IMG/VR virus record: IMGVR_UViG_3300046010_000515
Span: 1 to 35,043 of that record
Direction: 5' to 3' (one strand)
DNA: 35,043 nt
DNA from: a virus
Part shown: in pieces, positions 20,851-29,083 of the stretch
Numbering within the stretch: the first letter of the stretch is position 1
Layout: every line of letters starts with the position of its first letter
Notes under the pieces: generated by a model
What the model was told of the DNA's origin: nothing
Seen by the model: the letters and a program-made list of their open reading frames with translations, nothing else
The model's database searches: none
Made by a program: the position numbers and the translations under genes

Positions 20851-21108
20851 TTAATTAAAAGGGACATCATCATCCATGTCATCAAACCCGCTGGAAGGCT
20901 TAGAAGCCTTTTTAACGGGCACTGCGTCCTTTGGCTTGACCGACAGGCTCATAAACTTTTTACCCGTCTTCTCGCTCGTTTTAAGCCATCCTGACACCCA
21001 GAGGTCAACGCCATTGACGTTGAGGCTTCCCTTGTAATCAGGATGATTGTCTTGTTGCTTGTCATCGTTCTTAAAGATGGCTCCGCGATTTGAATTGTCG
21101 TATTGCAT
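20851..21108 (-). CDS. SSB-like single-strand DNA-binding protein
   Basis: 85 residues. The body (NRGAIFKNDDKQQDNHPDYKG, SLNVNGVDLWVSGWLKT, GKKFMSLSVKPK) is a small beta-barrel-like sequence common in phages. The C-terminus ends GFDDMDDDVPFN, nearly the acidic DDDIPF tip by which bacterial SSB recruits partners. It is directly downstream of the ERF annealing gene with 2 bases between, the usual neighbour of an SSB. The role in coating single strands for annealing is inferred. Confidence 0.72.
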   Translation of the reverse strand: MQYDNSNRGAIFKNDDKQQDNHPDYKGSLNVNGVDLWVSGWLKTSEKTGKKFMSLSVKPKDAVPVKKASKPSSGFDDMDDDVPFN

Positions 21109-21110
21109 GG

Positions 21111-21713
21111 TTATTCCTTTGCTTTCTTGATTTCACTTCTTACTTTGCTTGGAAGCATTGACCACAAAGCCACCTTCTGCTCGGCTTCTAGGTTCTCCGC
21201 TTCCATCCTCTCAAGACCTTGCTTTCCGTCCAAGGCCATGATTTCTTGTGCCAAATCTTGCAGATACTGAAGTTCCTCTGCTGGCAGAGAATCAGCAATG
21301 CCTTGTGCTGGCGTGATAACTACTTTTTTTGTTTCAACTGGCTTAGATGAATCAAGAGCATCATGCTCAACAATCTCAAGCGCAGCAACCCACAAATATC
21401 GGCGCAGGTATGTTTGCACTGCTCCAAGGTTTTGCACCTCATGGCAGCCCTTTAAAGCTGCTGTAGACATGGGTGATTCGATGACGATTACTTCCTCTGG
21501 CTTGTCAGTATTGATGATCCGCAGATCAGCAGTTTCTTTGCCAAAGCTGATGATGCCTGTCAGTCCAAACTCTTTAAAGATTTCCAAAGCCGGGATGATG
21601 AAGTCGCCAAGTTCAAAATATTTGTAACCGGCAAACTTGTTGTGGCCCGACTTCTTGAGTTCGATGCTGTGGAACTTGGCCCGAGCAGCGTTGAGTTTTT
21701 GATAGACATTCAT
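21111..21713 (-). CDS. erf: ERF-family single-strand annealing protein
   Basis: 200 residues. The ERF superfamily pattern is clear: KKSGHNKFAGYKYFELGDFI, PALEIFKEFGLTGIISF and LGAVQTYLRRYLWVAALEI (the G-x2-Q-T-Y-x-R-R-Y-hydrophobic block). C-terminal residues 130-200 form a charged helical tail, which may contact other recombination proteins. ERF proteins anneal complementary single strands and promote circularisation or recombination of phage DNA. The gene is preceded within four bases by a 40-residue ORF and followed by the SSB-like gene. No exonuclease partner was identified. Confidence 0.88.
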   Translation of the reverse strand: MNVYQKLNAARAKFHSIELKKSGHNKFAGYKYFELGDFIIPALEIFKEFGLTGIISFGKETADLRIINTDKPEEVIVIESPMSTAALKGCHEVQNLGAVQTYLRRYLWVAALEIVEHDALDSSKPVETKKVVITPAQGIADSLPAEELQYLQDLAQEIMALDGKQGLERMEAENLEAEQKVALWSMLPSKVRSEIKKAKE

Positions 21714-21992: not shown

Positions 21993-22142
21993 TTAAAAAA
22001 ACCATAGGTAAAAACCATGCAAGATTCCAATCGGGAACAGCAATGCTCCAGCGATTAAAAAGCCCCACAAGCCTTGTGCAAAGCAAGTGAAGATGTGCGT
22101 GAACCATGCTGCAACTGTCAGCCAAATAATGATGGCCCCCAT
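21993..22142 (-). CDS. Small two-helix membrane protein
   Basis: 49 residues, almost all hydrophobic: MGAIIIWLTVAAWFTHIFTC, FAQGLWGFLIAGALLFPIGI and LHGFYLWFF, giving two membrane helices. The start codon shares bases with the previous gene's stop (TAATG). Similar small membrane proteins with a GxxIIWLxVAAWxTH start occur in related phages, from memory. A role in superinfection exclusion or host membrane takeover is possible but not supported by sequence. Confidence 0.65.
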   Translation of the reverse strand: MGAIIIWLTVAAWFTHIFTCFAQGLWGFLIAGALLFPIGILHGFYLWFF

Positions 22143-22297
22143 TACTTCACTCGCTCAACTTTGGTTGCAAGCAGCCATTTGTCTCCAAGGAAACGAATAG
22201 ACTTGATCCACTGGCGACAGTTATGTCGTTGTGTGCTGACTGGCACACCTTGAACGCAGAACAGGCTGCGTACTTGTTTGAGGGCTTGTGTGTTCAT
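22142..22297 (-). CDS. First leftward gene, small basic protein
   Basis: 51 residues (MNTQALKQVRSLFCVQGVPV, STQRHNCRQWIKSIRFLGDK, WLLATKVERVK), basic, with RHNCRQW and RFLGDKWLLA as notable blocks. AGGAGAGTCC lies just upstream and decides the start. It is the promoter-proximal gene of the leftward block, about 20 bases after the predicted transcription start. DNA-binding is possible given its charge, but no HTH is clear. Confidence 0.65.
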   Translation of the reverse strand: MNTQALKQVRSLFCVQGVPVSTQRHNCRQWIKSIRFLGDKWLLATKVERVK

Positions 22298-22323: not shown

Positions 22324-22396
22324 ATTGTTAACCCAAAAAACAATCATGTGTATTAGGACAAACCCTAATAGACACATCTTTTTTTTGAGGTAATCT
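22324..22396. promoter_or_regulatory. Divergent promoter region with palindromic element, copy 1
   Basis: The 19-bp ATTAGGACAAACCCTAATA (22352-22370) contains an inverted repeat (ATTAGG, 6-base gap, CCTAAT). Leftward: TACACA (22352-22347) as -35, 17-base gap, AACAAT (22329-22324) as -10. Rightward: TAGACA (22369-22374) as -35, 16-base gap, TAATCT (22391-22396) as -10. The element lies between the leftward recombination block and the rightward early block and overlaps both -35 hexamers, as an operator or activator site would. Confidence 0.6.
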
Positions 22397-22403
22397 TTGC
22401 GCT

Positions 22404-22583
22404 ATGAACACACATGAACAACATGAACGTATGGCTGTCGAGCCGTTGCTAGACTATGCAACATCGCTGGTTCAGCAATACACAAACCCGGATGACATGG
22501 AGGCTGCTACCAAAGCACTTCTGATCGTCACACTGGAACATATTTTTAACAGGAGAATCTACATTGAGCAAATTACACGCTAA
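22404..22583 (+). CDS. First rightward early gene, small acidic protein
   Basis: 59 residues (MNTHEQHERMAVEPLLDYAT, SLVQQYTNPDDMEAATKALL, IVTLEHIFNRRIYIEQITR), soluble and helical. GAGG lies 13 bases before the ATG; ATGs at 22413 and later are alternatives with poorer fit. It is the first gene after the divergent control region, the usual site for early regulators or host takeover proteins. No family is recognised. It overlaps the next gene, which begins at a TTG. Confidence 0.6.
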   Translation: MNTHEQHERMAVEPLLDYATSLVQQYTNPDDMEAATKALLIVTLEHIFNRRIYIEQITR

Positions 22584-22986
22584 GTTGTTTTACCTTGAGC
22601 AACTGAGCATAAACCCAAGCCATCACCGCATCATTGCAAACCGCATGGTTGAAAGATTTAGCGTGAGTCCAGCAATGGTCAAAGATGAACTGCTGGCTGA
22701 TGGGTACATCAAGCTGGACAAGGTTGTTCGCATGGGCGAGACACGCAAGAACAATTACTTTTTTGTTTTGACTGGCAAAAAGTTTGTATATACAACTGAA
22801 CCTGAAAAGCAAGTTTCCTCTGTAGGTTTCTGGCCTTGCGGCACAAAGAAGTCAACGGGCAATGCTTTTGATTTGTCAATGGCTAAGGGCTTGTTTAACA
22901 AGACAGAACTTGCGGCATCGGTAAACAAGGGCAAGCCAAACAACTACAACTCAACAGTGCAAATCATTGCCTACAGCCGAGCATGA
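22564..22986 (+). CDS. Small wHTH-like early protein
   Basis: 140 residues from a TTG start, chosen because AGGAG lies 9 bases upstream (AACAGGAGAATCTACATTG). The N-terminal half (YLEQLSINPSHHRIIANRMVERFSVSPAMVKDELLADGYIKLDKVV, in parts) looks like a winged helix: recognition helix at VSPAMVKDEL and a wing at YFFVLTGKKFVY. It may bind DNA and regulate early expression. No catalytic residue set is seen. It overlaps the next gene by ATGA. Confidence 0.65.
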   Translation: MSKLHAKLFYLEQLSINPSHHRIIANRMVERFSVSPAMVKDELLADGYIKLDKVVRMGETRKNNYFFVLTGKKFVYTTEPEKQVSSVGFWPCGTKKSTGNAFDLSMAKGLFNKTELAASVNKGKPNNYNSTVQIIAYSRA

Positions 22987-25795: not shown

Positions 25796-26008
25796 ATGGC
25801 TTACAGCAGGAAAACCATATCCAATGAGGGTGACAGATACATGATTGAGCTTGGTGAAGCGCGAGTCTTGTTCAGGACTTACGAATCAACAGGCCAAAGG
25901 GTGTTAACGCCTGTTCGCATGGAGTGGATCGAAAAGACCTACGGAACGGGCGCTGTTGTGAGGATTCGTGAGTATATGAAGAAATTACAAAGTGGTGAAC
26001 TTGAATGA
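25796..26008 (+). CDS. Small conserved early protein
   Basis: 70 residues (MAYSRKTISNEGDRYMIELG, EARVLFRTYESTGQRVLTPV, RMEWIEKTYGTGAVVRIREY), mixed alpha and beta and basic. It lies directly upstream of the RusA gene with an ATGA overlap. No family is recognised. It may be an accessory of the resolvase. Confidence 0.65.
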   Translation: MAYSRKTISNEGDRYMIELGEARVLFRTYESTGQRVLTPVRMEWIEKTYGTGAVVRIREYMKKLQSGELE

Positions 26009-26421: not shown

Positions 26422-26834
26422 AAGTCACGCTCTACAACGCGCAACAGGCGCACACTGTCCTGAAAGACGTTTGGCAAAAAGCCAAGCCTTTCTTGCTGGC
26501 TGGTAACAAGCTGGTTCTGACAATCGAAGAGCAAAAGCGAAGCACCGAACAAAACGCCCTGCTTTGGTCTGTGCTGACCGATCTGTCAAAGCAAGTGCTG
26601 TGGCATGGCGAGAAGCTGACCAAAGAAGAATACAAGGATTTGCTGACTGCTGGCTTGAAAAAGCAACGGGCAATTCCCGGCATGGATGGTGGCTTTGTTG
26701 TTCTTGGAACTTCAACCAGCAAGATGACCAAGGCAGAGATGGCAGAGCTGATAACGCTGGCCCATGCATTTGGTGATATGCGTGATGTTGAGTGGTCGCC
26801 CACAAGCATTGGCGAGTTTCATGACGAAGGATGA
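26418..26834 (+). CDS. ninB: NinB-family recombination protein
   Basis: 138 residues. The family blocks are LTIEEQKRSTEQNALLWSVL, followed by KEEYKDLLTAGLKKQRAIPG, FVVLGTSTSKMTKAEMAELI and a final GDMRDVEWSP. Lambda NinB (Orf) promotes RecF-type recombination by binding SSB and single strands. The SSB-like gene at 20851 with an acidic tail is a natural partner here, which is inference. The start at 26418 overlaps the RusA stop, and GGAGCTGGA is the ribosome site. Confidence 0.88.
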   Translation: MKVTLYNAQQAHTVLKDVWQKAKPFLLAGNKLVLTIEEQKRSTEQNALLWSVLTDLSKQVLWHGEKLTKEEYKDLLTAGLKKQRAIPGMDGGFVVLGTSTSKMTKAEMAELITLAHAFGDMRDVEWSPTSIGEFHDEG

Positions 26835-27114
26835 AAAAGCCCACAAGCAAGCCGTGGCCGAACTTGGTTGCGCTTTGTGTCATCACTTGCATGGCGACCA
26901 TGATCCTGCCCCTGTAGAACTTCACCATTTGAGAGAAGGCGGTTGGGGTAAAGGCGGCTACATGACCTTGATACCGCTGTGCGCTGAACACCACCGTGGC
27001 AACACTGGATTTCACGGTCTTGGAAGCAAAGGGTTTGTCAAGCACTACGGCATCACGCAAAAAGAATTGCTTGATTGGACGCTTATGAGGGTTTCTCCTA
27101 ATACACAAGGCTAA
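26821..27114 (+). CDS. HNH nuclease of Ref/DUF968 type
   Basis: 97 residues from ATG 26821. A CxxC (GCALCHHLHGDHD) is followed by VELHHLREGGWGKGGYMTLI and PLCAEHHRGNTGFHGLG, giving the HH...H..H set of a compact HNH fold. Unlike the mobile HNH genes of this window, it sits in the nin-like cluster after RusA and NinB with a 14-base overlap, which suggests a resident recombination nuclease. Its C-terminal codons hold a copy of the control element at 27085. Confidence 0.82.
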   Translation: MTKDEKAHKQAVAELGCALCHHLHGDHDPAPVELHHLREGGWGKGGYMTLIPLCAEHHRGNTGFHGLGSKGFVKHYGITQKELLDWTLMRVSPNTQG

Positions 27115-27130
27115 TCTACAAGAGCAAAAT
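27085..27130 (+). promoter_or_regulatory. Degenerate third copy of control element with promoter
   Basis: ATGAGGGTTTCTCCTAAT (27085-27102) matches the reverse complement of the palindrome except one base in the left arm and one in the gap. TACACA (27102-27107) serves as -35, then 17 bases, then CAAAAT (27125-27130, 4 of 6). It would drive the small genes from 27157. Confidence 0.5.
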
Positions 27131-28847: not shown

Positions 28848-28979
28848 TTAAGCTGCAATTTCAACAATTTTCCAGTCTGCTTTGTGGCGAATTGCGTACA
28901 TTTTTGCAAAAGCACCTTGAGCAGCGCCGCGCGTTTTGTATGCTTTGTAAAAGTTGCCGTTGATGTAAAGATGAAACAT
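28848..28979 (-). CDS. Small basic leftward protein
   Basis: 43 residues (MFHLYINGNFYKAYKTRGAA, QGAFAKMYAIRHKADWKIVE, IAA), basic and beta-alpha-like. CGGAGCGACACA is the ribosome site. It starts about 25 bases after a predicted leftward transcription start (-10 GATAAT at 29016-29011). Function unknown; it could be a regulator of the early-late switch, given its placement. Confidence 0.62.
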   Translation of the reverse strand: MFHLYINGNFYKAYKTRGAAQGAFAKMYAIRHKADWKIVEIAA

Positions 28980-29010: not shown

Positions 29011-29083
29011 ATTATCTACTTGTCCACAGGAAAATCCATTAGGACAAACCCTAATACACAACTCGCCAAATCTGTGCTAGTGT
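29011..29083. promoter_or_regulatory. Divergent promoter region with palindromic element, copy 2
   Basis: ATTAGGACAAACCCTAATA (29038-29056) is identical to copy 1. Leftward: TGGATT (29038-29033) as -35, 16 bases, GATAAT (29016-29011, 5 of 6). Rightward: TACACA (29055-29060) as -35, 17 bases, TAGTGT (29078-29083), with TGC just before it; TAAAAT at 29086-29091 is an alternative -10. It separates the tiny leftward unit from the late block starting at 29112. Confidence 0.6.

Follow-up and report, generated by a model that had tools for sequence, protein, structure and literature searches.

A palindromic promoter element recurs at three gene boundaries

Which kind of control does a short palindrome exert when it lies exactly between two divergent early gene blocks of a phage and recurs elsewhere in the same genome? 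The phage record analyzed here (35,043 bases; its whole length is referred to as the window) is apparently that of a circularly permuted P22-like podovirus, because both of its ends hold parts of one portal gene and the terminase, portal and other structural families match. Exploring the window, we found the 19-mer ATTAGGACAAACCCTAATA as exact copies at 22352-22370 and 29038-29056, both flanked by divergent genes, and a third copy with two mismatches (ATTAGGAGAAACCCTCATA) on the minus strand at 27084-27102, which an earlier sequence-only reading of this DNA had overlooked. Matches to the 19-mer with up to three mismatches numbered three in the window against a mean of 0.02 per dinucleotide shuffle, and no shuffle ever held three. 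The bare palindrome with three mismatches is not unusual (12 in the window, 7.8 expected), and the significance of the element therefore rests on the exact repeat and on the promoter geometry. The sites and promoter-like units of the window are as follows.

22352-22369: site 1, palindrome ATTAGG-N6-CCTAAT (ATTAGGACAAACCCTAAT), putative operator separating the leftward recombination block from the rightward replication block
27085-27102: site 2, imperfect palindrome ATGAGGGTTTCTCCTAAT, overlapping the 3' end of ORF 26764-27114
29038-29055: site 3, palindrome ATTAGGACAAACCCTAAT
22324-22352, minus strand: predicted promoter P1L; -35 TACACA (22352-22347), 17-nt spacer, -10 AACAAT (22329-22324)
22369-22396, plus strand: predicted promoter P1R; -35 TAGACA (22369-22374), 16-nt spacer with a T8 tract, -10 TAATCT (22391-22396)
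27102-27130, plus strand: predicted promoter P2, upstream of gene 27157; -35 TACACA (27102-27107), 17-nt spacer, -10 CAAAAT (27125-27130)
29055-29083, plus strand: predicted promoter P3R, upstream of gene 29112; -35 TACACA (29055-29060), 17-nt spacer, -10 TAGTGT (29078-29083)
29011-29038, minus strand: promoter-like unit P3L; -10 GATAAT (29016-29011), very poor -35 TGGATT, palindrome at the same offset as at site 1

Each copy runs into CCTAATA[CG]ACA, followed 16-17 nt on by a -10-like NANNNT. The palindrome ends on the base that opens the -35 hexamer, from which a spacer of 16-17 nt leads to the -10; at 22352 and 29038 this holds in either direction. The two promoters that had been proposed around the first copy, TACACA-17-AACAAT leftward (22352 down to 22324) and TAGACA-16-TAATCT rightward (22369-22396), are both present as described. 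Searched for CCTAATANACA-N16-18-NANNNT, the window yields four units and no more, a pair at 22352 and single ones at 27085 and 29038, as against zero in 100 shuffles; together with the shuffle counts for the 19-mer, this rules out a chance repeat. In these four units a sigma70-type -10, with its conserved A and final T, lies 16-18 nt from the -35. None of these promoters was flagged by a generic sigma70 scan at 9/12, and by consensus they are weak. There is one palindrome per site, tandem operators being absent at all three. The T run at 22379-22386 in the P1R spacer is nearly invariant in closer relatives and not in other groups.

Genes around the three sites

The genes adjoining site 1 include the following.

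22142-22297, minus strand: first leftward gene, encoding a conserved 51-aa protein
20851-21713, minus strand: leftward recombination block, with an Erf-like annealing protein (21111-21713) and a single-strand DNA-binding protein (20851-21108)
22404-22583, plus strand: first rightward gene, encoding a 59-aa helical-hairpin protein and predicted to be leaderless (7 nt from the -10 to the ATG)
22564-22986, plus strand: gene of a candidate regulator, 140 aa, whose N-terminal residues 1-70 form a predicted winged helix-turn-helix

The gene neighborhood agrees with the earlier placement of the 22352 copy between leftward recombination and rightward early blocks. To its left lie small genes and those of the Erf-like annealing protein, SSB, an endonuclease and a MazG-like protein; to its right lie the 59-aa (22404) and 140-aa (22564) proteins, an HNH enzyme, an O-like/primosomal protein, a RusA resolvase, NinB and a Ref-like nuclease. 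Site 3, which had been described as a second identical 19-mer at a divergent boundary, is an exact copy with small leftward ORFs and the leftward -10 GATAAT on one side (a 43-aa ORF with its ATG at 28979 and GGAG before it, plus another small one) and, on the other, gene 29112, which precedes the packaging genes; terminase and portal genes lie farther downstream of P3R, beyond 29112. The association with divergent boundaries holds at 22352 and 29038 and fails at 27085, where the element overlaps the end of the Ref-like nuclease gene in a non-divergent setting and faces gene 27157. Within the leftward promoter of site 3 there is a DnaA-box-like TTGTCCACA (29020-29028), the sole TTRTCCACA in the window; at this position relatives keep TTATCCACA or TTATCAACA.

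The gene at 22404 was found in 41 of 41 clustered site-1 loci. In three phage groups, 32 distinct sequences place the ATG of the first rightward gene 6 or 7 nt behind the -10; from this spacing the 22404 mRNA is predicted to lack a leader, as does that of lambda cI.

The element and its -10 spacing are conserved in related phages

The motif search in related phages that the sequence-only reading had proposed did find the element. ATTAGGN6CCTAATACACA matched viral contigs 36 times, mostly at the same three sites in diverged relatives, and relaxing the -35 part gave at least 120 matches, among them those of a second large group whose genes diverge in the same way and which has a 59-aa gene homologue in the equivalent place. 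Since the reversed control pattern gave 17 scattered viral matches against 36 for the real one, isolated matches in unrelated phages may be chance and only clustering and geometry count; raw match counts were accordingly dropped as proof.

Alignments of 26, 13 and 22 non-redundant relatives for sites 1, 2 and 3, respectively, showed that the element is kept at all three boundaries while the flanks diverge; its absence from matching boundaries, named earlier as evidence against a switch element, is thus not what related phages display. At site 1, column conservation reached 0.88 in the AAACCCT operator core, 0.93 in the -10 and 0.93 in the start codon as compared with 0.58 in the upstream flank, whereas the -35 (0.72) fell below operator core and -10 and matched TTGACA in 2-5 of 6 positions among relatives. 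A dyad-symmetric site conserved above its flanks at orthologous places, the hallmark by which an operator is judged, is therefore present. Of 26 relatives, 21 have 28 nt between CCC and the -10 at site 1. Counted from the palindrome, the -10 lies at offsets 20-22 in both directions at sites 1 and 3; NANNNT peaks at offsets 21 and 22 to either side of site 1 and at 22 to the right of site 3. On the P1L side NANNNT was seen at offset 21 in 12/26 relatives and at offset 22 in 16/26; on the P1R side TANNNT occupied offset 21 in 21/26, and on the P3R side offset 22 in 9/9. It is thus very likely that the element is real, conserved and regulatory.

Unrelated phages show this geometry too: among 48 independent flanks, taken from every phage in which the fully symmetric form was found, 18 carried NANNNT at offset 22, other offsets mostly yielding 0-7 and two reaching 9 and 13; for TANNNT in the same 48 flanks, offset 22 yielded 10 against at most 4 elsewhere. 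A fixed -10 distance at all sites and in unrelated phages is left without a reason if the sites serve replication or recombination (an origin or resolution site) and the promoters are incidental, a reading that we regard as most improbable even though such genes lie on either side and a DnaA-box-like sequence adjoins site 3.

Several unrelated phages (L279, L339, L306, L326, L046 and L343) carry up to four perfect TAGGGN4CCCTA palindromes within ~1.5 kb, some in tandem; these clusters may be arrays of the same operator. In four other loci (L101, L109, L128 and L133) the palindrome ATTAGGATAAACCCTAATAGACA adjoins a strong, terminator-like G+C hairpin, and in a different phage group (L069, L083, L107 and similar) a related divergent palindrome, ATTAGGGAAAGTCCTAAT, lies upstream of Erf and YqaJ-like genes. 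An intergenic match in Curvibacter phage P26059A has an incomplete palindrome and was taken as chance. No element was found in Limnohabitans phage DC31, and a literature search on the motif returned no relevant paper.

Candidate binding proteins

Judging from the sequence, the palindrome is very probably the docking site of a regulator that controls the phage gene programme. The 22564 protein, whose model has a confidently predicted winged HTH (pLDDT 81-88 over residues 1-70), is by this model a good candidate regulator; in fold searches it resembles PadR, MarR and BlaI/MecI (VIA Z up to 9.6; Foldseek E 0.016), i.e. winged HTH rather than XRE proteins. Pfam and PHROGs assigned a family to none of the proteins at 22404, 22564 and 25796. 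With the 22564 family as query, 112 contigs were recovered and 80 loci kept; where these extend upstream, almost every one has a palindrome, in one of several sequence variants, at a constant distance from the gene start. The second phage group encodes a clear winged HTH in the equivalent place, with a C-terminal motif in common with the 22564 type.

Among the tested window genes and phage proteins none was found in all element-bearing phages examined. Of the four small proteins that had been proposed as binders, those of 23865, 25338 and 25607 belong to families that went undetected in many element-bearing relatives, and the 22564-type family had no match in whole contigs with the element, G006 (40-kb) and G003 (27.6-kb), although fragments or unrelated replacements are possible. 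Wherever a site-1 type phage was checked, the gene of a 70-aa protein (25796-26008) accompanied the element, as did 22404 within the site-1 group; in three Manatee Spring relatives neither the element nor 22404 nor 25796 was found. Linkage can explain this co-occurrence. As a DNA binder, the 59-aa 22404 protein was rejected, its model being a helical hairpin without HTH.

Within a phage, sites 1-3 depart from a common consensus independently of one another. That specificity swaps between operator variants was rejected as the main reading, given that variation within a phage equals that between phages and that nearly identical 22564 proteins go with different variants.

Activation, repression and the origin of the regulator

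We propose that a dimeric DNA-binding regulator docks on the palindrome, which is built into sigma70-type promoters such that its edge is the first -35 base and its center falls ~43-44 bp ahead of the predicted start. A single operator would serve two back-to-back promoters at sites 1 and 3, and one promoter at site 2. The bound dimer would recruit RNA polymerase as a class II activator and so offset the poor -35 hexamers, and the recombination block, the replication block and the blocks from 27157 and 29112 would answer one signal. The arrangement typical of class II sites, in which the site abuts or overlaps a poor -35 at a fixed spacing, is that of the element. Activation is favored by the contrast of a conserved spacing and -10 with a poor, variable -35, a combination that an activator in contact with polymerase would demand. 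Some unrelated sites (L319 and L093) count against activation, since they carry near-consensus promoters, TTGACA-17-TAAAAT, that should need no activator. Moreover, if the binder is encoded by the phage, an early promoter must fire before the binder is made, favoring basal activity or repression at site 1; this logic and the near-consensus promoters speak for repression or for a host factor. Weighing these points, we consider activation somewhat more likely than repression and the element, by a small margin, an activator site. That one signal activates all four blocks in the class II manner from the operator of a dimeric regulator has, in our judgment, marginally better than even chances. The same protein could repress at some promoters or at high concentration.

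An operator for a repressor, in the style of the lambda right operator and Cro, is possible though rather doubtful. Here the 22564 protein, made from P1R, would shut both early directions and likewise the two later promoters. A single dimer site amid divergent early promoters, with a winged-HTH gene second in one of the operons, fits this reading, as do the closest folds of the 22564 protein, most of which are repressors, the palindrome in its fixed place upstream of nearly all of the 80 loci that have upstream sequence, and the winged HTH of the second phage group with its matching C-terminal motif. G006 and G003, however, keep the element and yielded no homologue of this protein, and the nearly identical winged-HTH domains of L029 and L032 accompany different site-1 variants. 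In addition, the -35 is already poor and variable, and an operator that always ends at its edge is stricter than repression needs.

The regulator may instead be encoded by the host and adopted by several unrelated phages of one host group, the phage supplying sites only. This alternative, which we hold to be tentative and on balance unlikely, concerns the encoder of the binder and is compatible with activation as well as repression. It would account for the same promoter-linked palindrome in phages with no common gene among those tested and for the independent variation of the three sites around one consensus; a host factor would also precede early transcription, and the Caulobacter and phage phiCbK regulators with common binding sites offer a precedent (PMC10688885). 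A host regulon should give many genomic matches, but 84,980 bacterial and archaeal genomes (257 Gb), searched for ATTAGGN6CCTAATACACA, i.e. for one -35 form only, gave a single match, in an archaeal MAG. A further step, that one host-encoded activator with few or no host-genome sites is the common early entry signal in several unrelated lineages of uncultured phages through a convergent operator-promoter unit, appears improbable, if worth bearing in mind.

That the element belongs to a promoter recognized by an alternative sigma factor or by a phage RNA polymerase, instead of binding a separate regulator, is very unlikely. The weak -35 sequences would suit it, as would the form ATTAGGGnnnA, which is superficially like some T7-family promoters. 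The element is palindromic, though, works in both directions by its layout and has a sigma70-like -10 at 16-17 nt, and a PHROGs search of 30 window proteins turned up neither a polymerase gene (single-subunit RNA polymerase included) nor a sigma gene.

The palindrome and its promoters represent a new operator family of an ordinary, known kind. They constitute a promoter-operator unit, defined from the DNA alone, that is used by a large group of uncultured phages, including for early replication and recombination genes. An 18-bp site at four promoters of one phage with strict spacing offers an exact handle for finding the regulator, and the predicted leaderless first gene adds a testable feature. 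If the regulator is the host's, unrelated phages would depend on the same host factor to start infection.

Comparison with known systems

In Caulobacter and phage phiCbK, host and phage XRE regulators (TgrL, RtrA/B and CdxA/B) have in common an operator made of a strong and a weak half-site (PMC10688885). The present site differs in that no XRE protein is linked to it. The resemblance to lambda OR, with PRM/PR, CI and Cro, lies in an operator amid divergent promoters, in a position near -42 fit for activation and in a leaderless first gene in one direction, the cI mRNA being naturally leaderless (PMC4965119). Unlike lambda, which has three 17-bp operators, the present phage has one 18-bp palindrome of different sequence, its predicted leaderless gene encodes a helical hairpin rather than a repressor, and no CI- or Cro-like protein was found among the window proteins searched. 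The middle promoter Pm of phage Mu likewise has a dyad site upstream of a poor -35 and depends on an activator, Mor (PMC4287176); Mor is known and phage-encoded, whereas in the present phage a single site is common to two promoters. IscR-activated promoters of E. coli such as PydiU have another DNA sequence and are chromosomal rather than phage-borne, yet in these, too, the regulator site includes the edge of a poor -35 and the spacing to the -10 is critical: at this position IscR compensates for the poor -35, and a shift by 1 nt turns activation into repression (PMC8561392).
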